Shown piece by piece: positions 28,417 to 41,068 of a stretch of DNA of 41,589 bases. Location of the stretch: positions 1 to 41,589 of the forward strand of contig JADMJT010000007.1 in NCBI GenBank assembly GCA_018781585.1, given 5' to 3'. How positions within the stretch are numbered: the first letter of the stretch is position 1; every line of letters starts with the position of its first letter. Below the pieces are notes generated by a model. It was not told where the DNA came from. It made no database searches and saw only the letters and a program-made list of their open reading frames with translations. This DNA is from Burkholderiales bacterium (GTDB lineage Bacteria; Pseudomonadota; Gammaproteobacteria; Burkholderiales; Thiobacteraceae). The translations under genes and the position numbers were made by a program.

Positions 28417-29859
28417 ATGCTCGTCGGCTTCGTCGTTCTATATCTGGTCGTGTCCATCGGCATCGGCATGTACGCCGCGACCAAGGTGCACAACGCACGC
28501 GACTACATCACCGCAGGACGTTCACTGCCGTTGTATATCGTGATGGCCATGGTGTTCGCGACTTGGTTTGGCGCGGAGACGGTGCTGGGTATTCCCGCCA
28601 CCTTTCTCAAAGAAGATATGGGCGGGCTGATCTCCGATCCCTTCGGCGCATCGCTGTGCCTGGTGCTGTTCGGCTTATTTTTCGCGCGCAAGCTGTACCG
28701 CATGAATTTGCTGACCATCGGCGATTTCTACCGCCAGCGCTTCGGGCGCAAGGTGGAGGTGATCGCCGGTGTCGCCATCGCCTTGTCTTATCTCGGCTGG
28801 GTCTCGGCGCAAATCACCGCACTCGGCCTGGTATTCAGCATGCTCTCCGGCGGTGACATTACCCAAGCACAAGGCATCCTGATCGGCGCGGCGGTAGTGC
28901 TGATGTATACGCTGTACGGCGGCATGTGGTCGGTGGCGCTGACCACATTTTTCCAGATGATCATTATCGTCATCGGCTTGTTTTACATCGCCTGGCTGGT
29001 CGCGGACATGGCCGGCGGCGTAGCGCCGGTGATCCAGCATGCGGCCGCCAACAACAAATTCCATTTTTGGCCCGAGCTGAATGCAGTCGCCATGGTCGCC
29101 TTTATCTCGGGGCTGCTCACCATGGGCTTCGGCTCGATTCCGCAACAAGACGTATTCCAACGCGCCAACTCCTCGAAAAATGAAAATGTTGCGGTCTGGG
29201 GCACCGTGCTGGGGGGCGTGGCTTACTTCATATTCGCCGCGGTACCACTTTTCCTGGCCTATTCCGCGAATCTGATCGACCCGGCGCTGACCGCGAAGCT
29301 ATTGAGCGACGACGCGCAGAAAATTCTGCCCGCCTTGGTGGCCGGCCATCTGCCACTGCTGGCACAGGTGATTTTTTATGGTGCGCTGCTTGCGGTCATC
29401 ATGAGTACAGCGTCCGGAACCTTGCTCGCGCCCTCGGTCACGATTTCCGAAAATATCCTTAAGGGCTGGCTCATCCGGCGCAATTTGTCCGATCACAAAA
29501 TGCTGGTGCTGACGCGCTGGGTGGTGGCCAGCTTCGCCGTGTGCGTAACGCTCTACGCCCTATGGGCGCTAGGCACGAACACCGGCATTCATAAAATGGT
29601 AGAGAGCGCCTACAAAGTCACGCTGGTTGTCGCCTTCACTCCCCTCGTGGCGGGCTTATATTGGTCGCGCGCCACGACCCAGGGGGCTTATTTCGCCATT
29701 GGCCTGGGGTTAGCGACTTGGCTACCATTGGAATGGCTAGCCACAGAAGGCGGCATCCCGCCCCAATTCGCGGGATTTTTGATGAGTGTGGCGGGGATGT
29801 TCATTGGATCGCTTTTGCCGCAGGTTACCGGGGCGCAACGACAGCATCAGGCGCATTGA
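28417..29859 (+). CDS. Sodium:solute symporter family transporter
   Basis: 480 residues and about 12-13 membrane helices, normal for the SSS family. Supported by NARDYITAGRSLPLYIVMAM with MVFATWFGAETVLGIPA in the N-terminal helices, YTLYGGMWSVALTTFFQMII, and FGSIPQQDVFQRANSSKNE, a family signature. Likely moves a small organic solute with sodium across the inner membrane. The substrate cannot be told from sequence; proline, pantothenate and sugar porters share these motifs. Monocistronic, with its own promoter region downstream of ubiB. Confidence 0.9.
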   Translation: MLVGFVVLYLVVSIGIGMYAATKVHNARDYITAGRSLPLYIVMAMVFATWFGAETVLGIPATFLKEDMGGLISDPFGASLCLVLFGLFFARKLYRMNLLTIGDFYRQRFGRKVEVIAGVAIALSYLGWVSAQITALGLVFSMLSGGDITQAQGILIGAAVVLMYTLYGGMWSVALTTFFQMIIIVIGLFYIAWLVADMAGGVAPVIQHAAANNKFHFWPELNAVAMVAFISGLLTMGFGSIPQQDVFQRANSSKNENVAVWGTVLGGVAYFIFAAVPLFLAYSANLIDPALTAKLLSDDAQKILPALVAGHLPLLAQVIFYGALLAVIMSTASGTLLAPSVTISENILKGWLIRRNLSDHKMLVLTRWVVASFAVCVTLYALWALGTNTGIHKMVESAYKVTLVVAFTPLVAGLYWSRATTQGAYFAIGLGLATWLPLEWLATEGGIPPQFAGFLMSVAGMFIGSLLPQVTGAQRQHQAH

Positions 29860-29901
29860 CTTGAGCGATCGAGGGTAAAGCACCCAATCTAAAGGGCTGA
29901 A

Positions 29902-29918
29902 TGTCGTGATTTTTTACA
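29902..29918. promoter_or_regulatory. Candidate activator site of the first PEP-CTERM gene
   Basis: TGTCGTGATTTTTTACA shares TGTCG-N6-TTTACA, at the same 17-bp length, with the site upstream of the second PEP-CTERM gene. The match is partly palindromic (TGT...ACA). It lies 95 bp upstream of the sigma-54 promoter, a suitable distance for an enhancer-binding activator of the PrsR type. Confidence 0.55.
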
Positions 29919-30013
29919 TTCCCCTTTCAACATCTCGGCCTAACCGTTTCTTCCCATAACAATCTTGTTTTAACATCAAGCAGTTAAAGGTAATTCTACT
30001 TAATTTTAATTTA

Positions 30014-30029
30014 TGGCATATATTATGCT
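30014..30029 (+). promoter_or_regulatory. Sigma-54 promoter of the first PEP-CTERM gene
   Basis: TGGCATATATTATGCT has the invariant GG and GC separated by exactly 10 bases and fits TGGCAC-N5-TTGCT with two mismatches. It is 115 bp upstream of the ATG. A near-identical element precedes the second PEP-CTERM gene. Confidence 0.75.
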
Positions 30030-30143
30030 TAATATTTCATGAAAGGCCGAACAAAGTTGATTCGAAAAAATTTAGCGCATTTTGTCCGGGCTCCCTTTAG
30101 TTCTATTTTTTAATTTTAAAAACATTTATAGCAGGAGCAAAAC

Positions 30144-30830
30144 ATGAAATCGAAAATGAAATTCGTACCGGCCATGTTGTTGGGAGGCGTCTTAGCGCTA
30201 GCTGGAGCCACGAACAACGCGGCGGCGGCCGTGATTCTGAGTCCGGTAGCAGTCGTTAACACCGTGCCAGAATTCTTCCCTGGGTGCTGCGCCATCGGAC
30301 GAACCATCGATCAGTCTGGTCTCAGCGCAGGCTTTACGAGCGGGGTCACTGACTTCGATACCTACACAGGTACAAGCCCTTTGCACAGCATAAGCTTCGG
30401 TTTGGAATGGTTTGCTCCCTCAGGCACATTTGTCCAGACCATTGACTATGATCTGGGAGCATCCTATTTGGTGGATCGGGCAGCAGTGTGGAATGAGGAA
30501 TCATGGGGCGCCAGCACAGTAGATATTTTCACTTCCGCTGACAATATCACGTACGCATCGGTAGGCACGTTTGGACTCACCAATCATCTCGTTGCCAGCT
30601 ATGGTGCGGACATACTAAATGTATCCGACAGCACCGCCCGATACGTTCGCTTCGTGGTCACAGGTATTCCCGGCCCTGACGGTGATGGGTCCGACAACAC
30701 ATCTGTTTCCCTGGGTGAGGTAGCATTCTCAGTCGGTGGGGCACGACAGGTTCCCGAGCCTGCCTCCCTGGCGCTGATGGGCTTAGGGCTCGCTGGTCTT
30801 GCGGCGTTTCGCCGTCGCAAACTCGACTAA
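30144..30830 (+). CDS. PEP-CTERM sorting-domain protein with discoidin-like core
   Basis: 228 residues. A signal peptide (FVPAMLLGGVLALAGATNNA) leads into a beta-rich domain. YLVDRAAVWNEESWGASTVD followed by IFTSADNITYASVGTF and ARYVRFVVTG resembles an F5/8-type (discoidin, galactose-binding-like) module. The C-terminus VPEPASLALMGLGLAGLAA plus RRRK is a classic PEP-CTERM signal: the PEP motif, a hydrophobic helix and a basic tail, cut by exosortase (EpsH/XrtA). The protein would be exported and released or attached at the surface in exopolysaccharide/floc formation. No exosortase gene lies in the window. Confidence 0.92.
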   Translation: MKSKMKFVPAMLLGGVLALAGATNNAAAAVILSPVAVVNTVPEFFPGCCAIGRTIDQSGLSAGFTSGVTDFDTYTGTSPLHSISFGLEWFAPSGTFVQTIDYDLGASYLVDRAAVWNEESWGASTVDIFTSADNITYASVGTFGLTNHLVASYGADILNVSDSTARYVRFVVTGIPGPDGDGSDNTSVSLGEVAFSVGGARQVPEPASLALMGLGLAGLAAFRRRKLD

Positions 30831-30848
30831 GCATCCGCACGCACCCCC

Positions 30849-30882
30849 AAAAGCCCGACGGTAAAACCGTCGGGCTTTTTTA
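30849..30882 (+). terminator. Rho-independent terminator after the first PEP-CTERM gene
   Basis: AAAAGCCCGACGGT pairs perfectly with ACCGTCGGGCTTTT around an AAA loop and runs into TTTTTT. It is 18 bp past the stop codon. Confidence 0.93.
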
Positions 30883-30990
30883 TTAGTTCGACGGGGTAAT
30901 GGCCGGCCACCCTCTTAACCAATTCATATGGTGACGACGAACCTGCCTTTTGTCGCCTAAGCGCGCGCATTCAATAAAATCTCTAAAAAT

Positions 30991-31007
30991 TGTCGGATAA
31001 ATTTACA
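30991..31007. promoter_or_regulatory. Candidate activator site of the second PEP-CTERM gene
   Basis: TGTCGGATAAATTTACA has the same TGTCG-N6-TTTACA form as the site at 29902 and lies 63 bp upstream of the sigma-54 promoter at 31071. The rest of the 348-bp gap holds only AT-rich DNA and the preceding terminator. Confidence 0.55.
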
Positions 31008-31070
31008 TAGTTCATTTTAAAATTTCAAATAAAAACAAAATAACAAAAAAAATCAATGCATTAATACGGC

Positions 31071-31086
31071 TGGCATAATTCATGCT
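31071..31086 (+). promoter_or_regulatory. Sigma-54 promoter of the second PEP-CTERM gene
   Basis: TGGCATAATTCATGCT again has GG-N10-GC and shares TGGCAT-N5-ATGCT with the site at 30014. It is 93 bp upstream of the ATG. Confidence 0.75.
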
Positions 31087-31178
31087 ATTTATCTAGCACA
31101 ATGCAATCAACACGGTGTGCGATTTCCCGTTAGATTCATCTAATCCCAGCCTGCTATCAAATACTAAAGGAGAAAAAC

Positions 31179-32318
31179 ATGACTAAACCCAACTTCAAAC
31201 TAGCCATTATGGCGGGCGGGGTTGCGATGGCCCTTGCCGGTACTGCGGCAGAAGCTTCCCACTTCCGTGGCGGCGCACTGATTCCTACCGTATCCGCCGG
31301 TGGGGTGCTTACTGTTAGTTCCACGACTTTTTGGCGCCCTTCCGCGGTTAACCAACTAGCTGTTTCGGTCGGCGGAGTAGGCAGCAACGCGGGTATCTAT
31401 GCGGCTGACGACACCAGCGACAGCCGGTTTACCAAAGCTAGCGGGACGCATACCTTTCAATTGACTGGCGCGGGTACTTACGCTATTTCGATGTCAAGTT
31501 GCTGCCGGGTGAGCGGGATTCAAAACTTTGTTGGCAGCAGTTCCACGAGTTGGACCATGAATTCCAGCATCTTCTGGAACGGTAGCAGTGCCAGCGCCCC
31601 GATCCTGTTCAACTTCTCCAACGTGCAACCGGAAGTGCTGCGCGGCGCCAATTACAATGGCAACCTGGGTGCACTGGGCGGCGCAGGACTCACCCTGAGC
31701 TACGATCAGGCACTCAATGCGCCGATCGCTTCTCAACCCCCCGGCTTCACTATCAACGCTGCAACCGGCGCCCTGAATATTTCTGCCGCCAACACCGCCA
31801 CCTATGTGGACAACCCCACCAGCAATATCGGTGCGGACTACAGCTTTAGTGGCAACATCTTCGCCCGGGACGGCAGCGGCGCACTGCAGGGCCAAGTGGA
31901 GTTCGAGTGGCTGTTTGATGCGGTAAACACCTCGTCCAACAACGCGCCCACCGTCAACGACCTCATTATTAATGCGCTGATTGGCGATACGGTGAACGCG
32001 ACCGTCACCGCCACCGACGATGGCCTGCCCTCTGGCTTGATTAATTGGGTCGATATTGGCCTGCTCGGCGGACTGGGCACTTGCACCAACGCACCTAGCT
32101 TTAATACCGGAACCCAGGCCTTCAGTTGGAATACCGCAGGCTGCACAGCGGGAACGTATATTTACCAGGTGCAGGCATCCGACACGTTATTGACTGACTT
32201 CGGCACCATTACGGTAAATCTGGGGCAGCGTCAGGGTGTACCTGAGCCTGCCACGCTTTCACTATTTGGTTTGGGCGTATTAGCGCTGGGTGCATTTGCC
32301 CGTCGCCGCAAGTCTTAA
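31179..32318 (+). CDS. PEP-CTERM sorting-domain protein, second
   Basis: 379 residues with a signal peptide (LAIMAGGVAMALAGTAAEAS). SHFRGGALIPTVSAGGVLTV begins the mature protein. The middle is beta-rich and Ser/Thr/Asn-rich (TLSYDQALNAPIASQPPG, GDTVNATVTATDDGLPSGLI) and reads like cadherin/Ig-like repeats. The C-terminus VPEPATLSLFGLGVLALGAF followed by ARRRKS is a PEP-CTERM exosortase signal. An AAGGAG ribosome-binding site precedes the ATG. It is expected to be exported and processed at the surface. Its promoter architecture matches the first PEP-CTERM gene, so the two are probably one regulon. Confidence 0.92.
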   Translation: MTKPNFKLAIMAGGVAMALAGTAAEASHFRGGALIPTVSAGGVLTVSSTTFWRPSAVNQLAVSVGGVGSNAGIYAADDTSDSRFTKASGTHTFQLTGAGTYAISMSSCCRVSGIQNFVGSSSTSWTMNSSIFWNGSSASAPILFNFSNVQPEVLRGANYNGNLGALGGAGLTLSYDQALNAPIASQPPGFTINAATGALNISAANTATYVDNPTSNIGADYSFSGNIFARDGSGALQGQVEFEWLFDAVNTSSNNAPTVNDLIINALIGDTVNATVTATDDGLPSGLINWVDIGLLGGLGTCTNAPSFNTGTQAFSWNTAGCTAGTYIYQVQASDTLLTDFGTITVNLGQRQGVPEPATLSLFGLGVLALGAFARRRKS

Positions 32319-32344
32319 TAATAAGCATCTCTCGACTGACCTTG

Positions 32345-32374
32345 AAACTCCCCCCTTGAGGGGGAGTTTTTTTT
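32345..32374 (+). terminator. Rho-independent terminator after the second PEP-CTERM gene
   Basis: AAACTCCCCC pairs with GGGGGAGTTT around CTTGA and is followed by more Ts. It is 27 bp past the stop codon. Confidence 0.93.
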
Positions 32375-32424
32375 GCTATTGCCGCGCTACAATCCGCCCA
32401 CCCGGCCAGGATTCCCAATAGACC

Positions 32425-34248
32425 ATGCCCACCGCTGAACCAGGACGAAATACACTTTGCCCCTGTGGCAGTGGCAAGAAATTCAAACGCTGTTGCGGTG
32501 CGGCCCAAGCCGCGTCTCCCCCAGCCAACGGCGGGGGCTTGACTCAAGCACTTGCGCTTATTCAACAAGGACAATTATTGCAAGCAGAAACGCTGCTCGC
32601 CGACCTGGTGAAAGCGCAGCCGCGAAATCCCACCTATCATTACTTGTCGGGTTATGCCGCGCTTCAGGGCGGACGCCACGCTGAAGCCGCTGTGGCTATG
32701 GGCAAGGCAATCGACCTAGGGCTCACCGATCCTGCTGCTTTTTACCATTATGGCTGCACGCTCGCTGCGTTGGGCCGATATCCTGAAGCCGCGAACGCTT
32801 TCGAGCAGTCGTTGGCGCTAAAGCCGGATTTTTTGCCCGCGCGCACCAATCTGGCAAGCTGCCGTTTTGAGCTGCGCGATTTCGCACAAGCGGAACAGCA
32901 TTATCGGCAAACGTTGGCAAGCGATCCGAGTAATCTTGCGGCCTGCCATAACCTCGGCCAAGTTTTCTACCTCACCCAGCGCATCGGCGAGGCGATCGAA
33001 TATTTCAAGCGCGCCGCTGAGGCAGCGCCGAATGTGGCGGAGTTCCGAGCCAGCTTGGCGACCATGCAAGAAGCCGATAATCAATTGGATGCGGCCGAAT
33101 CTTCCGCGCGTACGGCCTTAGCCTCCGAGCCGTACAACGTGACCGCTGCCGTCGCCTTGGCCCGGGTATTGCGCAGACGTGAGCAAACGACAGAAGCCCT
33201 CACCGCGCTTACCGCCGCCGATCTCCGCACCAGCATGCCACGCACCGCAATCGCCTACTGGTCCGAGCGTGGTCAGACGCTGGAAGTGCTTGGCCGTTAC
33301 CGTGAAGCATTTGACGCGTATGCCCAAAGCAAGGCGCTCCTTGCCGAAACACGTACTCAGCGTTATGACTGGCAGGCGACGGAACAAGCGCTTGCGAGCG
33401 AGCGCTCCATTTTGACGCCGGAACGGGTAACGGCCTGGGCGCTTAAGCCGGAACCGAGTACGCCGGCGCCCTTGTTCATTGTGGGTTTCCCACGCTCCGG
33501 CACCACGCTACTGGAACAGATGCTCGGTTGCCACTCGCTGATCGTGCCTTGCGGCGAGCTGGAAACCGCTATTGAGCGCGAGACCAGCTCGTCCGACTAT
33601 TTCGACAACCTCGCCAAGTTAAACGAAAACGATCGTCAAGCCAGGCTACAGGCTTTGCGCATGGACTATCTGGCTGTGCTGCGAAGCCATGCCGAGCATG
33701 CCCCGGAAGCGCGCTACGCCAGCAACAAACTGCCGCTTAACCTGATGCGAATTGGCATCATCCGCCTGCTCTTTCCCGAGGCTCGAATTATCCACGTGCT
33801 GCGCCACCCGCTTGACGCAGTGCTCTCGGCTTATTTCACGCCTTTCCTGTTCGGCAACGAGTGGTCACTGCGGCTAACTGATACAGCCCACCTGTTTTCC
33901 CAATCGTGGCGGCACGCTGAAACAATGCAACGACTGCCGGGTACGCACTTTTTACGTGTACGTTACGAAGATCTGGTTACCCATCCGGAACCCGTCCTGA
34001 AGGAGGTATTGGCCTTCCTCGATCTACCTTGGGAACCGGCATGCCTGGACTTCCACCAGAGCCGACGCATTGCACGCACAGCGAGCTATGCCCAAGTCAC
34101 GCGCACCCTGTACCAGACTTCTAAAAAGCGGTATCGTCATTACCTAGATTACATCGATGTGGAAACGCTGGCGCTGTTACAGCCAGTCATCGCGGAAGCG
34201 GGCTACGAAGTGGAATACCTAAACTCTCTCCAAATCGCCCCCGTTTAG
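32425..34248 (+). CDS. SEC-C / TPR / sulfotransferase fusion protein
   Basis: 607 residues. Domain order: an N-terminal SEC-C zinc motif (C12, C14, C23, C24 in LCPCGSGKKFKRCCG); about eight TPR repeats (for example GYAALQGGRHAEAAVAMGKA, FFERALALKPD-like units, AACHNLGQVFYLTQRIGEAI); and a sulfotransferase domain with the PAPS 5'-phosphosulfate loop F355-P-R-S-G-T-T361. Its 3'-phosphate region reads IIHVLRHPLDAVLSAY. TPR-sulfotransferases of this type resemble protein-tyrosine sulfotransferases, but the acceptor is unknown. Lack of a signal peptide means it acts in the cytosol. It sits between two PEP-CTERM genes and an exported TPR gene. Confidence 0.88.
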   Translation: MPTAEPGRNTLCPCGSGKKFKRCCGAAQAASPPANGGGLTQALALIQQGQLLQAETLLADLVKAQPRNPTYHYLSGYAALQGGRHAEAAVAMGKAIDLGLTDPAAFYHYGCTLAALGRYPEAANAFEQSLALKPDFLPARTNLASCRFELRDFAQAEQHYRQTLASDPSNLAACHNLGQVFYLTQRIGEAIEYFKRAAEAAPNVAEFRASLATMQEADNQLDAAESSARTALASEPYNVTAAVALARVLRRREQTTEALTALTAADLRTSMPRTAIAYWSERGQTLEVLGRYREAFDAYAQSKALLAETRTQRYDWQATEQALASERSILTPERVTAWALKPEPSTPAPLFIVGFPRSGTTLLEQMLGCHSLIVPCGELETAIERETSSSDYFDNLAKLNENDRQARLQALRMDYLAVLRSHAEHAPEARYASNKLPLNLMRIGIIRLLFPEARIIHVLRHPLDAVLSAYFTPFLFGNEWSLRLTDTAHLFSQSWRHAETMQRLPGTHFLRVRYEDLVTHPEPVLKEVLAFLDLPWEPACLDFHQSRRIARTASYAQVTRTLYQTSKKRYRHYLDYIDVETLALLQPVIAEAGYEVEYLNSLQIAPV

Positions 34249-34314
34249 GAAACCCCTCGAGACTTGCCGTTGCCTGTCCGCGAATTCTTATCTCGCATTT
34301 ATTAAGGAACCCCT

Positions 34315-36144
34315 ATGTCACGTGCGCTCTTCTCCTGTTTAATCACCTCGCTGTTGTGGGCTGCCGCTCCAGCAATTCAGGCCCTTCCGCTCAGCCCCAG
34401 CCAAGCGCCGCAAGCCAACCTGGGCCTCTCGGCAAATCAATGGAAAGAATCAGCTATCCTCATGGAGGCTGTGGAATTATTGAAACGGGGTGAGCCGCAA
34501 CAGGCTAAAACCAAGCTGGCGCAGTTCCTGAAGCGAAATCCCAACGACCCGCGCGGCCCGGAGTTGGCCGGCATGATCTTGATGGCGGAGAAGAATTACC
34601 AGGTCGCCGTTATTTCTTTTGAGCGTGCACTTACTTTGAGCCCGAATAATCCCGGCGTGCTCTCCAAGCTTGGCGTCTGTTTGCTGCTGCAAGATAAGAA
34701 AAAAGAAGGCGAGAGCATGCTGAATAAGGCCATCGCTTTACGCGCTGGCGAGCCACTGGCAAGACGCTATCTTGGCTGGCTGGATGAGGGGCGCGGCAAT
34801 CTAAATGGCGCCGGTTACCATTACATTGCAGCGCTCAAGGGAGGCGATTTACCGGCCGGGGTGCTGACGGAAATTCATGTTTCATTGGGGCGAATTTACA
34901 GTGCGCTCGGCAGACACGAACAGACAGTACGTCTACTCGCACCTTATATCGCTAAGGCCGATTCGGGAGAGATCGCACAGGTGGCGCGATTCCAACTCGC
35001 ATTCGCCTATATCGAACTCCAACGGGGAGCGGAAGCCACGCCGTTAATCCAGCGCCTGGAAAAAGAATTAAAACCCGATAATCCGGAATTACGCTTTCTT
35101 AAAGCTTATGCGCAGCTCGATTCAAATCCCACCAGCGCGCGTGAGAAATTGCAAGCACTGATCAAATCACATCCCACCTACACCGGTCGCGCCCGGTTGT
35201 TGATTGCTCGCAGTTATGCAGTTGAGGGAAAAACACCCCTTGCTGTGAAGGAACTTGAGGGACTCGCCGCGCAAGTGGAAAAAGGCGATCTGCCAGAAGT
35301 GCTAACCGCACTGGTCGCCTTACAACTTTCCGCCGGAAAAGCTACGGAGGCAGGAAACGTACTGGAAACTTATGCCAAAAAGCATCCGGATATTCCAGAA
35401 ATCACTTATCTCCTTATTGAAGCCCGTATCCAGGCGGGAGATATAGCCAATGCGCAGACCCAACTCAAACAATTGGTCTCCAAATACCCCAACTACGCGC
35501 AAGCGTATGCCCTGCTCGGCCAAATCGAACGCAGCCAAAATGCCTTACCCCAGGCTGAGGAGCACTTGAGAAAAGCCGTCACACTCGACAGTAACCTTGC
35601 GCCTGCCTGGGTCAACCTGGCAGGCGTTTACGTGAGCCGCAAGGACCTGGCAAAAGCCGAAGGTACGCTTAAACAAGGCTTAGAAACCAACCCTGGTAAT
35701 GCAGTTTTACAATACGAGTTGGCCAATATTTATGATGCGATGGGGCGAGGACAAGATGCCAATCCGCTCTACCGAACCATCCTCGCCGCCTACCCTAACT
35801 ATCTCCCCGCATTAAACAATATCGCTATCAATCTTGCAGAGGGCAATGATTTGGCCAACGCCAGACAGTATGCTGAAAAGGCCTATCAGATCGATAAACG
35901 CAATCCGGCGGTACAAGATACTTACGGTTGGATACTCATACTCAGCAACGATACCGGTAAAGGCTTACCCCTATTGGAACAAGCCGCCCGCGGCATGCCG
36001 AGCGACCCCACCGTCTTGTATCACTTAGGCGCGGCCTTGATAAAAGCCGGAAAAGCCGAAGAGGGGAAACGGTATGTACAACGCGCGCTTGCCTCCGGCC
36101 TGCCGGAAAATTTGCGCAAAAAGGCACAAGCACTCACGAACTGA
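34315..36144 (+). CDS. Exported TPR-repeat protein (PrsT-like)
   Basis: 609 residues with a signal peptide (SCLITSLLWAAAPAIQALP). The remainder is almost wholly TPR repeats, at least ten, for example LAGMILMAEKNYQVAVISFE, AYALLGQIERSQNALPQAEE and AWVNLAGVYVSRKDLAKAEG. This resembles TPR proteins of the PEP-CTERM/exopolysaccharide locus (PrsT type), though the usual PrsT is longer. It probably scaffolds surface polymer export in the periplasm. An AAGGAA ribosome-binding site precedes the ATG. A convergent APS-kinase remnant begins 7 bp after its stop. Confidence 0.8.
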   Translation: MSRALFSCLITSLLWAAAPAIQALPLSPSQAPQANLGLSANQWKESAILMEAVELLKRGEPQQAKTKLAQFLKRNPNDPRGPELAGMILMAEKNYQVAVISFERALTLSPNNPGVLSKLGVCLLLQDKKKEGESMLNKAIALRAGEPLARRYLGWLDEGRGNLNGAGYHYIAALKGGDLPAGVLTEIHVSLGRIYSALGRHEQTVRLLAPYIAKADSGEIAQVARFQLAFAYIELQRGAEATPLIQRLEKELKPDNPELRFLKAYAQLDSNPTSAREKLQALIKSHPTYTGRARLLIARSYAVEGKTPLAVKELEGLAAQVEKGDLPEVLTALVALQLSAGKATEAGNVLETYAKKHPDIPEITYLLIEARIQAGDIANAQTQLKQLVSKYPNYAQAYALLGQIERSQNALPQAEEHLRKAVTLDSNLAPAWVNLAGVYVSRKDLAKAEGTLKQGLETNPGNAVLQYELANIYDAMGRGQDANPLYRTILAAYPNYLPALNNIAINLAEGNDLANARQYAEKAYQIDKRNPAVQDTYGWILILSNDTGKGLPLLEQAARGMPSDPTVLYHLGAALIKAGKAEEGKRYVQRALASGLPENLRKKAQALTN

Positions 36145-36150
36145 GCGAGT

Positions 36151-36263
36151 TCAGCGTAAATAACCCTCGCGTTCCAATTTCAACAAAATCCGCTGCACCG
36201 CCTCATCCACGCCGATATCGGAAGTATTTATCGATAATTCTGGCGTGACGGGGATCTCATACC
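36151..36263 (-). pseudogene. Remnant of an APS kinase gene (C-terminal 36 codons)
   Basis: The minus strand reads YEIPVTPELSINTSDIGVDE and on to LEREGYLR followed by TGA. That is 32 of 36 residues identical to the end of the Sat-CysC protein at 37190. At DNA level I count 92 of 111 bases identical, with most differences synonymous. There is no start and the similarity ends abruptly at 36263 next to AAAAAAATGGGG. It is a decayed paralogue, not a recent copy, and it bounds the VapBC-like module on its left. Confidence 0.9.
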
Positions 36264-36378
36264 AAAAAAATGGGGCAGTTCAGTCTGCACCGTTACCGGT
36301 GCGTTACTAGTAACCCCGCTCTGCCATTCTGCCGTTCAAAACGCGAGCCATATCAACGTTAACGGTGTGCGCCAATCG

Positions 36379-36407
36379 TTGTATTTTAGAGATTGACGGC
36401 GTAGAAT
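36379..36407 (+). promoter_or_regulatory. Candidate sigma-70 promoter of the second TA module
   Basis: TTGTAT (36379-36384) and TAGAAT (36402-36407) are 17 bp apart and 45 bp upstream of the antitoxin start. Upstream there is a 6-bp hairpin GCACCG-TTAC-CGGTGC (36287-36302). Pattern match only. Confidence 0.45.
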
Positions 36408-36451
36408 CAAAACATCACAACATCTCTGCATCAATCATAAGGAGAAATGCA

Positions 36452-36709
36452 ATGAGAACAACGCTGGATATCGACGAAGATGTACTGTTGGCGGCAAAGG
36501 AACTCGCTAAGCGTCAAAATTTATCGGCTGGACAAGTGGTCTCTAAGATGTTGCGGAGGGTGCTGACTGGCCAGACTGAGCATGCCATGGCGCCAGAGGA
36601 TGTAAATTCTGGATCTCAAACTGTCGCGGGGTTCCGCCCTTTCCCGGCGGGTAGGGCGCTCGTCACGAACGATGCGGTCAATCGCCTGCGGGAAACTGAA
36701 GGCGTTTAA
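36452..36709 (+). CDS. VapB-like antitoxin (second module)
   Basis: 85 residues from the ATG at 36452, which has AAGGAG 8 bases upstream; the frame extends upstream to 36365 without support. MRTTLDIDEDVLLAAKELAK and NLSAGQVVSKMLRRVL form a ribbon-helix-helix type DNA-binding start. The C-terminal tail (GFRPFPAGRALVTNDAVNRL) is typical of antitoxins that pair with this VapC subgroup. Its stop overlaps the toxin ATG (TAATG). It is expected to neutralise the toxin and repress its own promoter. Confidence 0.88.
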   Translation: MRTTLDIDEDVLLAAKELAKRQNLSAGQVVSKMLRRVLTGQTEHAMAPEDVNSGSQTVAGFRPFPAGRALVTNDAVNRLRETEGV

Positions 36710-37140
36710 TGCGCGCCCTTTTGGATGTAAACGTCCTGATCGCGCTGCTTGATGGCAGCCACATACATCATGGCTCGGTAAGCGCTTGGCTGGCCAGCCA
36801 CATTGATCAGGGTTGGGCTTCGAGTCCAATCACCCAAAACGGATGTATCCGCATCCTTTCACAGCCGGGTTATCCTAACCCGGTTCCCGCGGCACAAGTG
36901 GCCGAGCGGCTTACAGAAGCAACCCGGCACCCGTCGCACGTATTCTGGGCTGATTCCATCAGCTTGCTGCATCCTGGATGCCTGATGTGGAGCCGGGTTC
37001 TAAGTTCTCGGCATGTAACCGATGCCTATCTGTTGGCACTCGCCGTTCAGCAAGGCGGGCGTTTTGTCACCTTGGATCGAGGCATCCCCCTTGATGCCGT
37101 TGGCGGGGCATTGCCTGAGCATCTCGCGATCCTCTCGTAA
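36709..37140 (+). CDS. VapC-like PIN-domain toxin (second module)
   Basis: 143 residues. PIN acidic residues D6 (ALLDVNVLIALLDG), D105 (HVTDAYLLALAV) and D123 (FVTLDRGI) are in place. SPITQNGCIRILSQPGYPNP marks the subgroup often annotated as TA-system VapC ribonuclease. It is translationally coupled to the antitoxin. Only about 50 bp separate it from the convergent Sat-CysC gene, and the remnant of that gene's paralogue lies on the other side of the module. Confidence 0.9.
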   Translation: MRALLDVNVLIALLDGSHIHHGSVSAWLASHIDQGWASSPITQNGCIRILSQPGYPNPVPAAQVAERLTEATRHPSHVFWADSISLLHPGCLMWSRVLSSRHVTDAYLLALAVQQGGRFVTLDRGIPLDAVGGALPEHLAILS

Positions 37141-37189
37141 TCCATTCCACACCAGATTTAAATCAAATCGCTCCAAACAAAAACCCCAG

Positions 37190-38770
37190 CTAGCGCAAAT
37201 ATCCTTCCCGCTCCAGCTTCAACAAAATCCGCTGCACCGCCTCATCCACGCCGATATCCGAGGTATCGATCGATAATTCTGGCGATGCCGGAACCTCATA
37301 CGGATCGGACACGCCGGTGAATTCCTTCACAATGCCGGCGCGCGCCTTGGCATAGAGCCCCTTGCGGTCGCGCGATTCACACACCTCGATCGGTGTGGCG
37401 ACGTGAATTTCGAAGAACCCGCCGTATTGCTCGATCATGTGGCGCACGGCTTGACGCGTGGCGGTATAGGGCGCGATCGGCGCGCAAATCGCCACGCCGC
37501 GATGCTTGACGATTTCACTCGCGACATAGCCGATGCGTCGGATATTGAGATCGCGGTGCTCGCGTGAAAAGCCAAGCTCGCTCGACAAATGCTTGCGCAC
37601 GATATCGCCATCGAGCAAGGTGACTTGGCGACCGCCCAACTCCAACAAACGCACCATCAAAGCCTTGGCTAGCGTGGATTTACCCGAACCAGAAAACCCG
37701 GTAAAGAAAATGCAGATCCCCTGCATAGACCGGGTCGGATAGGCGCGGCGTAATGCTGCCGTCACCTCGGGAAAAGCAAACCACTCGGGTATGTCTTGGC
37801 CGCGTTCAAGCCGACGATGCACTTCTTCGGCGGAGAGAATCTCCTTCGTCACCTGGCCGTTGGTTTTTGTGATTTGCAAGTGCTTACCTTCGGCTTCTAC
37901 GTACACCATCGCGGGCAAGCCGATCAGATGCAGGCCCAAACCAGCACCGTAAGGCGCGAGCTCAGACTCGGCAACACCATCCAGCACCACATGGGTACAG
38001 CCGTAATTGCGCGCGACGATTGCCTTCAACAACGCTGCGCGCAAGCCGCCGCCATGATCCGGCAAAGGCAACAAGGCCAGTGCAGTGCTAGCTGCTGTGG
38101 AGCGCGCCAATACCGCTTCATAGCCGTGAATGCGCGCAAAGTACTCCACCTCATCGGCCGGCATCTCGCCCGCCACCGGGAGCAGCAGCAAGCTTGCCTC
38201 GTGACTGCGCGCGCACTCGACAATGAAATCGTACTGCGGGCGAAACAACGCATGCTCAGGTTGATAAGCCAGAATGCGGCGCCAACCACGGCGCGCGAAC
38301 TGGCGGCGCATTTCCTCCGGCGTTTGGCGCAGCTCGGTGAAATCGTGGTGTTGCGGCAAGCCCGCACCCTCTAGTGCACCGCCTATACGAACCTTGCCAT
38401 CGACCGGCCACACATCACCCACGGTCAGTACCGCAAGCATGAAACCTTCCGCGTCGCGGAGTGCTAACCGCACCCCCGGTGTCAAGTTAGCGCCGATTTT
38501 CTCGGACACTTCGAGCGCAATCGGCACTGGCCAAAACACGCCATTGGCCAGCCGCATCGAGGCCGCCACGCTATCGTAATCGGCGCGGTTCATATAGCCC
38601 GTCAAAGGCGAATAGCCGCCATTGATCAGCAGTTCCAAATCGGCGGTTTGGCGCGGGGTGAGATCAATCGAAACCAAATCACGCGCTTCCAGTTTCAGCG
38701 CGGTTTGGCGTTCTGGCGTGCCAAGCAAAGCACTGAGCTTGCCGGTATAGGGGGCGATGAGATTATTCAT
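37190..38770 (-). CDS. Sat-CysC fusion: degenerate ATP sulfurylase plus intact APS kinase
   Basis: 526 residues in Sat-then-CysC order. The Sat part keeps the PUA-like start (LINGGYSPLTGYMNRADYDS) and the end of the domain (GQDIPEWFAFPEV). At residues 166-176, however, it reads ILAYQPEHALF where active enzymes have Q-x-R-N-P-x-H-x-x-H; and at 258-268 it has CTHVVLDGVAE instead of GRDHAG. The sulfurylase reaction is thus doubtful. The APS kinase part is complete: P-loop GFSGSGKST at 358-366, LLDGDIVRKHLSSELGFSRE, PIAPY and DRKGLYAKARAGIVKEFTGV. It should phosphorylate APS to PAPS in the cytosol. It was probably recruited for PAPS supply to sulfotransferases. Confidence 0.9.
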   Translation of the reverse strand: MNNLIAPYTGKLSALLGTPERQTALKLEARDLVSIDLTPRQTADLELLINGGYSPLTGYMNRADYDSVAASMRLANGVFWPVPIALEVSEKIGANLTPGVRLALRDAEGFMLAVLTVGDVWPVDGKVRIGGALEGAGLPQHHDFTELRQTPEEMRRQFARRGWRRILAYQPEHALFRPQYDFIVECARSHEASLLLLPVAGEMPADEVEYFARIHGYEAVLARSTAASTALALLPLPDHGGGLRAALLKAIVARNYGCTHVVLDGVAESELAPYGAGLGLHLIGLPAMVYVEAEGKHLQITKTNGQVTKEILSAEEVHRRLERGQDIPEWFAFPEVTAALRRAYPTRSMQGICIFFTGFSGSGKSTLAKALMVRLLELGGRQVTLLDGDIVRKHLSSELGFSREHRDLNIRRIGYVASEIVKHRGVAICAPIAPYTATRQAVRHMIEQYGGFFEIHVATPIEVCESRDRKGLYAKARAGIVKEFTGVSDPYEVPASPELSIDTSDIGVDEAVQRILLKLEREGYLR

Positions 38771-38842
38771 GATTTGGAACAGTCCTTTTGTTCTTATCCG
38801 GCAAAGCGAATTTTATTCTGAAGGGGTTGCTTGTTATTCATT

Positions 38843-39005
38843 TAAATCCCCCCTACCCCCCTTTTTTACCCGCAAGGGGTACGCCGGTGGGTGCCCCGCT
38901 GCTACGCAGCGACCCTTCCGCAGTCAAAAGGGGGAACCCACTGAATAGGCGCCAATAACTTTGTTAGAAGGTTTTTCTTTTTTCAAAGAGGGACAGGGGG
39001 ATTTA
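38843..39005. repeat. AAATCCCCCC-family palindrome split by a 58-bp insert
   Basis: The left arm TTAAATCCCCCCTACCCCCC (from 38842) is matched by the right arm near 38985-39005 (ACAGGGGGATTTAC). The left half has the same AAATCCCCCCT-CCCCCCTTTT order as the unit at 26025, but the GCC loop is replaced by the 58-bp unit at 38869, after which AAAAGGGGGAACC resumes. The right end supplies the TAA stop of the DHH gene. Confidence 0.75.
38869..38926. repeat. 58-bp dispersed repeat, copy B
   Basis: Second copy of the unit at 22473-22530: CCCGCAAGGGGTACGCC up to CCTTCCGCAGTCA, same length. It has the hairpin GCTGC-TAC-GCAGC. It sits in the loop of the AAATCCCCCC palindrome. Confidence 0.85.
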
Positions 39006-39962
39006 CAACGCACGAAAAGTCTCATCGAACAACTTCAAGAAACGCGGCAATTCGCTCTCCGGCAAATGATTAATACCTGCCGCCCCTTTGCGCCCACCCC
39101 CTGTTTCAAATTGGGCGCACAACGTATCCGCGCCCTGTCGAACGGAAACGGGGGCGCGCACGCTCACCAGATAGCCGCTGTTTTTTTGCGTCAACACCGC
39201 ATGCGCAAGGTGGGGGGCGCCCACTGCCAGGTCATTCCCAAATACGCCAGACACCCGGCGCGCCCACGGTGCGTTGGGCAGCAGATACACCACGCCAACA
39301 TCGTTCGTTTGCATCGGCTGAATGGTGCGCACACGCTCCATATCTTGCGCGTAGCCACGGCTCAGCATTTGAAACGTTTCCGTTTCGCGAATGAAGCTAA
39401 AGGGATCAGCATGCTGATGCAGCTCGCGATATAGCTCAGCCGGATGAAAAAATAAATCATCAGGCGACTCGCCATAGCCATTGTAGTTGAGGCACTCGCC
39501 CAAGGTTTGCAATTCACTTAAGGCAGAATCACCCAGCCCCAGCGGCGCTGCTTCGCGCCGCGCCACATCGGCGAGATTATCCCCAAACGCCGCCACCACC
39601 GCCCAAACCAGATGCCGGCCAGCCAGAAAACGATTCACCAATAGGCTAGTACAGACTTCGGCGCTGGTATCGATATGCGCATGCAGATTCGGATGCGCGG
39701 GAATATCCCCAGCCTGATGATGATCGAAATACGCCACGTGCGCACCCGCATCCAACAAGCGCACCAACGCAGCATGGTTTGTTTTGAGCGAGACATCCAG
39801 CACTGTCACGCGATCACCCTCACCCGCATCAACACGATCGAGCAGCGCGATATCGCGTTTCACGCCCGTCACCAGCGTTGCCTCGCGCGGCTCGCAGAGG
39901 CGTAATTGATGCAATGCACAAATGCCATCCGCATCGCCGTTGAATGTATCAAAATCTGCCAA
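39003..39962 (-). CDS. DHH-family phosphoesterase
   Basis: 319 residues. DHH metal ligands: N8-G-D-A-D-G near the N-terminus (D10, D12), VTVLDVS with the next Asp, and FDHHQAG for the DHH motif; the DHHA1-like end has GGGRKGAAGINHLPES. Such enzymes include NrnA-type nanoRNases and pAp phosphatases, as well as other phosphoesterases. Because PAPS-dependent sulfotransferases leave pAp, and an APS kinase and a sulfotransferase lie nearby, pAp removal is an attractive but unproven role. The last codon and stop lie within the palindromic repeat. It diverges from galE. Confidence 0.82.
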   Translation of the reverse strand: MADFDTFNGDADGICALHQLRLCEPREATLVTGVKRDIALLDRVDAGEGDRVTVLDVSLKTNHAALVRLLDAGAHVAYFDHHQAGDIPAHPNLHAHIDTSAEVCTSLLVNRFLAGRHLVWAVVAAFGDNLADVARREAAPLGLGDSALSELQTLGECLNYNGYGESPDDLFFHPAELYRELHQHADPFSFIRETETFQMLSRGYAQDMERVRTIQPMQTNDVGVVYLLPNAPWARRVSGVFGNDLAVGAPHLAHAVLTQKNSGYLVSVRAPVSVRQGADTLCAQFETGGGRKGAAGINHLPESELPRFLKLFDETFRAL

Positions 39963-40078
39963 AGCGTCCTCGCAACGTTATCTCGTCTGTAGACGGGGAA
40001 ACAAAACTAGAAGAATACCGGAACTTCCTCTATCCTATCCAGCAAAGAAATCCTGTAAATATTTCAAAGATAAGCCCC

Positions 40079-41068
40079 ATGCCCACTCCTCTCGTGCTCG
40101 TCGTTGGCGGCGCCGGTTATATCGGCTCGCACATGGTCAAATTATTGCTCCAGCAGGGTTGCAACGTCGTCACCCTGGACAATCTTTCCACCGGTTATCG
40201 CGATGCAGTCGTCGGGGGCGAATTTAGACTCGCCGATCTGGCCGATCAGCCTGCGTTAGGACGTCTGTTCACCCAACACCGATTTGATGCGGTCATGCAT
40301 TTCGCCTCTTTTATTCAGGTCGGCGAATCGGTGAAGGAACCGGCGAAATATTACGAGAATAACGTCACCAATACGCTTAACTTGCTCAATGCGATGGTAG
40401 CCAACGGCGTGAAGCGTTTCATCTTTTCTTCCAGCGCTGCCGTTTATGGCAACCCGCACAGCGTTCCGATACCAGAAGATCATCCGAAAAACCCCATCAA
40501 CCCCTATGGCCGTACCAAATGGATGGTGGAGCAGATTTTGGAAGACTACGACCACGCCTACGGCCTGAAATCCGTTTCGCTGCGCTACTTCAACGCTGCT
40601 GGCGCCGACCCCGAAGGGCAATTAGGCGAGCGACATGAACCCGAAACGCATTTGATTCCGCTGATCCTGCGCGCAGCGTCTGGCCGTGCGCAGGATATCA
40701 AGATTTTTGGCCGCGATTACGACACGCCCGACGGCACCTGTATTCGCGATTACGTCCATGTCACCGACCTGTGTGAGGCGCATCGTCTGGCACTGGATCA
40801 CTTGCTAGAGGGCGGAGCCAGCGCGGCGCACAACTTGGGCAATGGAAATGGCTTCTCGGTCGCAGAAGTGGTCAACGCTGCAAAGCGCATAACGGGACGC
40901 GACATCAAAATCACAGAGGCGCCCCGCCGTGAGGGTGATCCACCACGACTGGTAGCTGACGCGACACGCGCGCGCAAAGAACTTGGCTGGCAGCCGCGCC
41001 TCAATGACCTAGACGCCATCATCAACCATGCCTGGGCGTGGGAGCGGCGCAGCTTAGGCACCTCATGA
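40079..41068 (+). CDS. galE: UDP-glucose 4-epimerase
   Basis: 329 residues from the ATG at 40079; the frame is open further upstream to 39944, but MPTPLVLVVGGAGYIGSHMV is the normal beginning. Rossmann motif GGAGYIGSH at 10-18; SSSAAVYG and YGRTKWMVE supply the catalytic Ser-Tyr-Lys set; YFNAAGADPEGQLGE and PDGTCIRDYVHVTDL are GalE signatures. It interconverts UDP-glucose and UDP-galactose for sugar polymers. Next to PEP-CTERM genes it probably feeds exopolysaccharide synthesis. It is divergent from the DHH gene, with a 116-bp gap. Confidence 0.95.
   Translation: MPTPLVLVVGGAGYIGSHMVKLLLQQGCNVVTLDNLSTGYRDAVVGGEFRLADLADQPALGRLFTQHRFDAVMHFASFIQVGESVKEPAKYYENNVTNTLNLLNAMVANGVKRFIFSSSAAVYGNPHSVPIPEDHPKNPINPYGRTKWMVEQILEDYDHAYGLKSVSLRYFNAAGADPEGQLGERHEPETHLIPLILRAASGRAQDIKIFGRDYDTPDGTCIRDYVHVTDLCEAHRLALDHLLEGGASAAHNLGNGNGFSVAEVVNAAKRITGRDIKITEAPRREGDPPRLVADATRARKELGWQPRLNDLDAIINHAWAWERRSLGTS

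Follow-up and report, generated by a model that had tools for sequence, protein, structure and literature searches.

Why does a sulfotransferase gene stand directly behind the gene of an exported PEP-CTERM protein, with an adenosine 5'-phosphosulfate (APS) kinase gene close by? The question is raised by contig JADMJT010000007.1 of a Burkholderiales bacterium (Thiobacteraceae; assembly GCA_018781585.1), whose full 41,589 nucleotides are called the window below. It is one (C134) of the 134 contigs of a 2.84-Mb genome that is 98.7% complete, and absences from this genome are therefore not certain. An earlier inspection of the letters (the original prediction) had proposed a module for sulfation of a surface protein or polymer. 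We found that the sulfotransferase, here named ST, has the predicted fold of tyrosylprotein sulfotransferases (TPSTs), that ST and its relatives recur next to genes for exosortase-sorted proteins, and that the APS kinase gene, Sat-CysC, has PEP-CTERM genes as recurrent neighbours. The reading that we lean towards, with modest confidence, is that the locus is a sulfation module for exosortase-sorted surface proteins, dependent on 3'-phosphoadenosine 5'-phosphosulfate (PAPS) and acting in the cytoplasm. Four genes carry the argument (relatives are cited below by genome, G, and locus, L, and contigs of the window's own genome by C):

31179 to 32318, forward strand: PEP2, an exported PEP-CTERM protein and the candidate substrate of ST (PF07589, 27.9 bits)
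32425 to 34248, forward strand: ST (SEC-C 36.3 bits, tetratricopeptide repeats (TPR), Sulfotransfer_3 138.9 bits)
37190 to 38770, reverse strand: Sat-CysC, a two-domain APS kinase (APS_kinase 193.5 bits; Sat-like domain without QTRNPxHRxH)
39003 to 39962, reverse strand: DHH-family phosphoesterase (PF01368 20.2 bits, under its cut-off of 28.1)

Predicted fold and active site of the sulfotransferase

ST has 607 residues, among which a hydrophobic N-terminus was not found, and consists of a SEC-C motif (residues 8-25), a TPR superhelix (about 34-310) and a TPST-like sulfotransferase domain (about 342-600). SEC-C is a motif that binds SecB. An AlphaFold2 model built from 27 homologues reached a predicted local distance difference test (pLDDT) score of 90, and its residues 342-599 superposed on human TPST1 (5wrj) with a Z score of 24.6 and 2.5 Å over 249 residues (VIA-align). 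The top seven structural matches of the domain were all TPSTs (Z 23.7-24.6), sulfotransferases of polyketide pathways ranking next at Z of about 20, and TPSTs were also the closest solved relatives by sequence (phmmer, E 2.8e-14). In the structure search the TPR half resembled designed TPR arrays, SPINDLY and O-GlcNAc transferase. The PAPS-binding 5'-PSB motif reads GFPRSGTTL, and across the 27 homologues R357, G359, E378 and S554 are invariant and K435 nearly so. Of the catalytic Glu, Lys and Ser of TPST, the Lys and Ser align with K435 and S554, and E378 lies one position off the Glu in the phmmer alignment. ST thus shares with metazoan TPST1 and TPST2 the catalytic fold, the PRSGTT motif and the aligned Lys and Ser, but is only 22% identical, and TPST resides in the Golgi membrane and has neither TPR nor SEC-C. 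By fold and PAPS-binding motif ST is probably of TPST type, with enzymatic sulfation of tyrosine as its predicted activity; because its fold is TPST-like and its TPR half is like that of protein-modifying enzymes, a protein substrate is favoured.

Contig C44 of the same genome (L177 8521-14083) encodes neighbouring TPR proteins, two of them with SEC-C and one of these two with a glycosyltransferase-41 domain. Given these proteins, SEC-C plus TPR may be a reusable targeting module of protein-modifying enzymes.

Sulfotransferases beside exosortase-tag genes

Orthologues of PEP2, 78% identical, were found at L009 and L010, and a search of 398 further genomes of the order (399 with its own; E 1e-6) returned no match to PEP2. 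The PEP2-ST pair is intact in all three genomes in which PEP2 was found: ST follows 58-113 bp behind PEP2 and is 77-82% identical among the pairs, while the genes upstream differ in L010.

Across the order, the ST domain was detected in 27 of 399 genomes (E 1e-15). The set that we analysed comprises 29 loci with 33 TPR-sulfotransferase frames (26 order loci including the window, to which are added L009, L010 and second loci in some genomes), the ST loci of G078, G258 and G284 being left out. Ten of the 33 frames have a gene with a PEP- or VPLPA-type tag within 1.3 kb (window, L009, L010, G005, G037, G003, two in G086, G260 and G317). Eight of these ten tag genes lie upstream of the sulfotransferase on the same strand, seven of them at 58-280 bp; in G260 a stop interrupts the frame, and the gap to the tag gene is longer. 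The partner tags passed curated cut-offs, those unconfirmed by Pfam doing so with TIGR02595 or TIGR03370, with the exception of L332. The partners fall into six unrelated families. On the ST-domain tree, tag linkage requires six gains or losses, four of them forced by well-supported branches, although it is somewhat clustered (11 of 500 shuffles were as low). At G003, G037, G086, G260 and G317 the pairing occurs away from Sat-CysC.

PEP-CTERM genes at the 3' end of Sat-CysC

The DHH gene, with matches in 139 of the 399 genomes (E 1e-20), served as an anchor for comparing neighbourhoods. We examined 93 DHH loci (window, L009, L151-L160, L164 and L208-L287), made up of an initial set and the best 80 further matches; G167, on a short contig, and lower matches were left out. 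Sat-CysC lies beside DHH in 25 of them and is absent from 68. In 22 of the 25 the sequence continues for 3 kb or more past the Sat-CysC 3' end, L158, L160 and L164 being without room, and 11 of these 22 have a PEP-CTERM gene on that side, always convergent, as against none of the 68 loci without Sat-CysC, where the stretches reach up to about 9.4 kb either side of DHH (nominal P 1.7e-8). Limiting the comparison to genomes with PF07589 matches gave 11/20 versus 0/38 (nominal P 7e-7; L009 was kept without a count). Ten of 21 loci had a PEP-CTERM gene no more than 6.4 kb from the 3' end of Sat-CysC, where 0.35 were expected from genome sizes and PF07589 counts, the counts covering 80 of 91 genomes; the nominal P of 2e-13 is overstated because the loci are related and because the PF07589 genome search undercounts, having missed the genome's own PEP2.

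A repeat profile, made from nine tails not linked to Sat-CysC, returned the same 11 loci and none of the 68 controls at 10 bits. It added L215, where the tag gene lies beyond DHH, 7.7 kb away, and gave one control match below 10 bits (L266, 8.7 bits). G008 and G009 have two PF07589 matches each in their whole genomes, and in each a PEP-CTERM gene is directly beside Sat-CysC. The proteins encoded at this slot share little beyond the tag and belong mostly to unrelated families (window/L009/L010; G005/G007/G025; G373/G347/G288; the rest have no relatives in the set), with a weak match between those of G009 and G288 and a remnant at L009 that looks, by eye, related to the G373/G347/G288 family. 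The original prediction had staked itself on co-occurrence with PEP-CTERM genes elsewhere. Examined as gene neighbourhood, that association survived, and PAPS supply beside a sulfotransferase and PEP-CTERM proteins recurs in relatives.

The supply of PAPS

The best PDB match of Sat-CysC is 3cr8, the two-domain APS kinase of Thiobacillus denitrificans, with 588 bits and the same domain order; the title of Gay et al. (2009) on that enzyme states that ATP sulfurylase activity is absent, and our literature searches found no surface-protein link for it. In the Sat half of the window's protein, YQPEHALFRPQ replaces the QTRNPMHRSHE of the standalone Sat, and the score to the bifunctional family NF004040 (PRK05537) is 657 bits, short of the curated cut-off of 669. 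Because the QTRNPxHRxH motif is lost, we read the sulfurylase half as probably dead and the gene as APS kinase only. The PAPS supply that had been suggested for this gene would hold for its kinase half, and not for a full PAPS synthase.

Standalone Sat is encoded in the same genome within a sat-aprB-aprA group. By this gene content APS is an intermediate of the cell's sulfur metabolism, made by sat-aprBA, and we infer that the organism oxidises sulfur. Sat-CysC of the window is the only APS kinase found in the genome, and no match to the PAPS reductase CysH was found there by a search that was positive in 14 of 14 control genomes. Among 60 relatives, 15 have the Sat-CysC fusion. True CysH occurs in one of these 15 (G025) and in 30 of the 45 others (Fisher P 5e-5); taken at face value, two of the 15 have CysH over the Pfam cut-off (P 6e-4) and three at E 0.001 (P 0.002), the matches not counted being those of G004 (39.7 bits, over the cut-off, in a 628-residue frame) and G037 (21.2 bits, below it). 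Sulfotransferases of PF00685 have the opposite distribution, in 10 of 15 fusion genomes versus 7 of 45 others (P 4e-4). Because no PAPS reductase was found, CysH is inversely distributed and PF00685 is enriched, PAPS in this organism probably serves sulfation and not cysteine synthesis. Housekeeping sulfur assimilation as the purpose of Sat-CysC was considered and rejected, given that the organism's own CysH was not found and that the distribution in relatives is inverse.

The DHH enzyme was proposed to remove adenosine 3',5'-bisphosphate (pAp), the by-product of sulfation. It is the upstream same-strand neighbour of Sat-CysC in all 25 linked loci, and in the one-contig genome G187 (L213 9344-12058) the two form a natural in-frame fusion, DHH::Sat-CysC, in a single open frame of 904 codons. 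A dedicated role in pAp removal is not supported, however, given the 68 of 93 DHH loci without Sat-CysC, many with a VanZ-like gene near, and five genomes (G014, G021, G027, G055 and G056) that have DHH and neither an APS kinase match nor CysH. The DHH motifs are conserved among homologues. The window protein matched no NCBIfam subfamily, its profile gave weak PDB matches over one stretch only (RecJ, E 0.099; NrnA, E 0.48), and an AlphaFold2 model from two sequences had a pLDDT of 62.6, too poor for a structure search. The G187 fusion leaves a functional link between DHH and Sat-CysC open, and disposal of pAp is possible.

Layout, export and regulation

The right end of the window reads, in order, ubiE-ubiJ-ubiB-like genes (names assigned by reading translations), a sodium:solute symporter gene, PEP1, PEP2, ST, a gene for an exported TPR protein, a Sat-CysC fragment and VapBC, followed on the opposite strand by Sat-CysC and DHH; galE also lies at this end. 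Family annotation covered ten genes at 28417-41068. The remaining features are:

30014 to 30028, forward strand: sigma-54-type -24/-12 site 5' of PEP1, TGGCATATATTATGC, with GG/GC spacing
30144 to 30830, forward strand: PEP1, an exported PEP-CTERM protein (PF07589 36.8 bits, hydrophobic N-terminus)
30849 to 30879, forward strand: intrinsic terminator-like hairpin 3' of PEP1, 14 pairs
31071 to 31085, forward strand: sigma-54-type -24/-12 site 5' of PEP2, TGGCATAATTCATGC
32344 to 32370, forward strand: intrinsic terminator-like hairpin in the PEP2/ST gap, 11 pairs
34315 to 36144, forward strand: exported TPR protein, PrsT-related but below the PrsT cut-off
36154 to 36261, reverse strand: displaced Sat-CysC 3' fragment, codons 491-526
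36365 to 36709, forward strand: VapB-like antitoxin, no family over cut-off, named by its position before VapC; outside the proposed function
36709 to 37140, forward strand: VapC toxin, PIN domain (TIGR00028 97.3 bits, cut-off 73.6); outside the proposed function

All genes of the original prediction are present: the two PEP-CTERM genes, which sit just upstream of the range 32425-39962 quoted for it, the ST fusion, the exported TPR protein, the APS kinase fusion and DHH. The VapBC pair and the Sat-CysC fragment are extra elements beyond that list. A single operon is not borne out, Sat-CysC and DHH being convergent to the rest and the terminator-like hairpin parting PEP2 from ST.

Both PEP proteins combine a C-terminal tag over the PF07589 cut-off of 20.7 bits with an exported-type N-terminus, and PEP1 has a NedA-like/F5-F8 type C-like region below the Pfam cut-off. 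An exosortase-family gene was detected on C120 (L338 864-2022), with 30.9 bits to PF09721 (cut-off 25.7) and 42.3 bits to TIGR04178 (cut-off 23); its nearest named families are XrtM and XrtH, both below their cut-offs. It is short and the sole one detected, with a PEP-CTERM-type gene close by at the end of the contig, and the PF09721 search found no full-length EpsH in the genome. The exported TPR protein scores 249.9 bits to PrsT (TIGR02917), under the cut-off of 312.2, and its signal segment ends without the Cys that marks PrsT as a lipoprotein; an 87% identical orthologue stands behind ST in L009.

The -24/-12 pattern follows the sigma-54 consensus. Sites of this type also precede the PEP2 orthologues of L009 and L010, and were found within 350 bp upstream of 19 of 24 PEP-type genes versus 1 of 16 control genes (others of the window). 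The stricter form is present at four of six other PEP genes of the genome that were examined. With two mismatches allowed, the pattern is not in excess across the window (55 seen, 64.6 expected), and it is informative solely in its stricter form 5' of PEP genes. The GG/GC spacing upstream of PEP-CTERM genes is reported in PMC1569441. A sigma-54-type site was not found upstream of ST, and this, together with the hairpin behind PEP2, would fit unequal expression, with much made of a structural protein and little of the enzyme.

Protein or glycan as the substrate

Where the original prediction named a surface protein or polymer, the protein is now favoured and polysaccharide stays as a rival. The preference is drawn from the TPST-like fold of ST and from the fact that polysaccharide-type clusters pair an APS kinase with Sulfotransfer_1. 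The strongest competing explanation, which we nevertheless hold to be unlikely, is that ST sulfates an exopolysaccharide or surface glycan, free or protein-borne, with the PEP-CTERM proteins as merely co-regulated matrix partners. PEP-CTERM systems accompany exopolysaccharide according to PMC1569441, several relatives have Wzy-like and VanZ-like genes beyond DHH, and sulfotransferases share polysaccharide-type clusters with other copies of Sat-CysC or CysC (G037 C15, G005 C95 and G008 C28). However, ST resembles protein tyrosine sulfotransferases in fold, its neighbour in the observed pairs is a tag protein and not a glycosyltransferase, and the polysaccharide-type clusters hold Sulfotransfer_1 and an APS kinase of their own, from which the DHH-linked copy looks separate.

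Two such clusters, L173 (G005 C95) and L174 (G008 C28), have standalone APS kinases near Sulfotransfer_1 enzymes and DegT-type aminotransferases, L173 also a PPDK_N-domain protein. By gene content they are probably a sulfated-polymer pathway separate from the system of the window.

Probable growth of the locus at the Sat-CysC 3' end

The fragment at 36154-36261 is 84.5% identical in DNA to the window's own Sat-CysC and 85.7% to that of G007. Such fragments lie behind cargo in the window (one), in G004/L151 (two, each after a PEP gene) and in G005/L152 (one), where 33 residues (E 2.5e-5) stand between the PEP gene and a different TPR-sulfotransferase, 28% identical to ST, which immediately follows Sat-CysC at the corresponding position of the chromosome. 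The interval from ubiB and the symporter to Sat-CysC is common to the window, G005 and G037, and the PEP genes in it differ in each. In each of the 11 PEP-Sat junctions examined, whether displaced or not, the two genes meet tail to tail, with 61-81 bp and a hairpin between them. This pattern suggests serial insertion, and the 3' end of Sat-CysC appears to be a hot spot for insertion that gathers PEP-CTERM genes and sulfotransferase cassettes. VapBC has the complete Sat-CysC on one side and the displaced 3' end on the other, which is how a cassette that regenerated the gene end on insertion would look. That the ST island and the fragment were imported together from an L009-like donor was unsupported, since the sequences nearest to the fragment are those of G007 and of the window's complete Sat-CysC.

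A hot spot also invites a simpler account, in which unrelated cargo (PEP-CTERM, VapBC, sulfotransferase) collects at the Sat-CysC 3' end without shared function. The displaced fragments flanking cargo, the uniform junctions and the presence of VapBC all speak for it. The cargo is non-random, though, with PEP-CTERM genes in half of the 22 loci and two kinds of TPR-sulfotransferase (window/L009 and G005), and TPR-sulfotransferases adjoin tag genes at the five genomes' loci outside Sat-CysC as well, and we consider coincidence rather improbable. A further alternative gives ST a small molecule, or a peptide unconnected with PEP-CTERM proteins, as its substrate and its TPRs a part in oligomerisation. 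It draws on the diversity of bacterial TPR-sulfotransferases, the frames without tag partner and the matches to polyketide-pathway enzymes, but is very improbable given the higher scores of the TPSTs and a PEP2-ST pair unbroken in three of three genomes despite different upstream genes in L010.

Discussion

Under our preferred reading, of ST as an enzyme that sulfates exosortase-sorted proteins, sat-aprBA would supply APS and the two-domain kinase would convert it to PAPS, with which ST, as a soluble cytoplasmic enzyme, would sulfate the unfolded PEP2 preprotein, probably on tyrosine, before Sec export; other PEP-CTERM preproteins are perhaps substrates as well. Its hold on the substrate would come from the TPR superhelix, and the SEC-C motif, which is like the SecA tail (treated in PMC6620043), may bring ST to secretory preproteins. 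The sulfated protein would then be exported, processed by the XrtM/XrtH-like exosortase and displayed, with the exported TPR protein possibly acting in assembly and DHH possibly disposing of pAp or another nucleotide. More tentatively, and at somewhat less than even probability, we extend this order-wide, to a cytoplasmic protein (tyrosine) sulfation in which dedicated TPR/TPST-like enzymes are each matched to their own PEP-CTERM partner, some delivered by SEC-C, with PAPS made from the APS of sulfur oxidation through an APS kinase gene that travels with PEP-CTERM genes.

Several points weigh against this proposal. Substrate, modified residue, order of steps and the part of SEC-C are deduced from gene content, predicted fold, motif loss and gene distribution, and no sulfated protein has been seen so far. 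Of the tyrosines of PEP2 only seven are conserved, all outside strongly acidic patches, and the gap between PEP2 and ST holds a terminator-like hairpin. Tag genes are missing beside 23 of the 33 TPR-sulfotransferase frames in the stretches examined, and the L332 partner tag, at 25.0 bits, falls narrowly short of the VPLPA-CTERM cut-off of 25.35. Half of the Sat-CysC loci with room (11/22) have no PEP-CTERM gene on the 3' side, 26 control stretches out of 68 span less than 15 kb, the loci are related, so that the P values are nominal, and the first PEP profile was trained on Sat-linked tails. The fusion genomes G001, G009 and G054 (completeness at least 91%) have no PF00685 match. Among eight genomes of the genus, five (G001, G002, G004, G006 and G007) gave no TPR-sulfotransferase match, and Sat-CysC must therefore serve other sulfotransferases too. 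Finally, the genome has a second sulfotransferase, on C79 (L172 2410-3315; Sulfotransfer_1, 171 bits, without an NCBIfam name), which adjoins a pyruvate-dehydrogenase-type E1 pair and whose neighbours have no evident link to sulfation.

The closest known parallel is RaxX-RaxST of Xanthomonas, in which the sulfotransferase gene likewise lies beside that of an exported substrate and PAPS comes from the ATP sulfurylase and APS kinase genes RaxP/RaxQ (tyrosine sulfation and PAPS supply are described in PMC4216712 and PMC6637879). The Rax substrate is a 60-residue precursor with a predicted type I exporter that has a C39 peptidase, whereas the locus here has a Sec/PEP-CTERM protein of large size, SEC-C and TPR domains on ST and an APS kinase with a degenerate sulfurylase half, with sat-aprBA elsewhere in the genome; no type I exporter with C39 peptidase is among the ten annotated genes. 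With the PEP-CTERM/exosortase system of Haft et al. (2006; PMC1569441) the locus shares two tagged proteins, sigma-54-type upstream sites and an exosortase-family gene in the genome; the parts of that paper available to us contain no sulfation component, and speculate on TPR-guided covalent modification and glycosylation of PEP-CTERM proteins. By title and abstract, and with few subscription papers covered, we found among the papers listed none tying sulfation, a sulfotransferase or APS kinase to PEP-CTERM or exosortase proteins, PMC8205485 included, and none on sulfation by TPR-sulfotransferases.

Bacterial protein tyrosine sulfation is best known from RaxST, and little is known of the chemistry of PEP-CTERM proteins, which make up a large class on the surface of environmental bacteria. 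Sulfation of exosortase-sorted proteins, the most likely meaning of the association described here, would extend known bacterial protein sulfation. If true, biofilm matrices would gain strongly acidic proteins, and many uncharacterised TPR-sulfotransferases would gain a testable substrate, namely the exported product of the neighbouring gene. The retention of an APS kinase where no PAPS reductase was found would then have an explanation, and sulfur energy metabolism would be linked to the cell surface.

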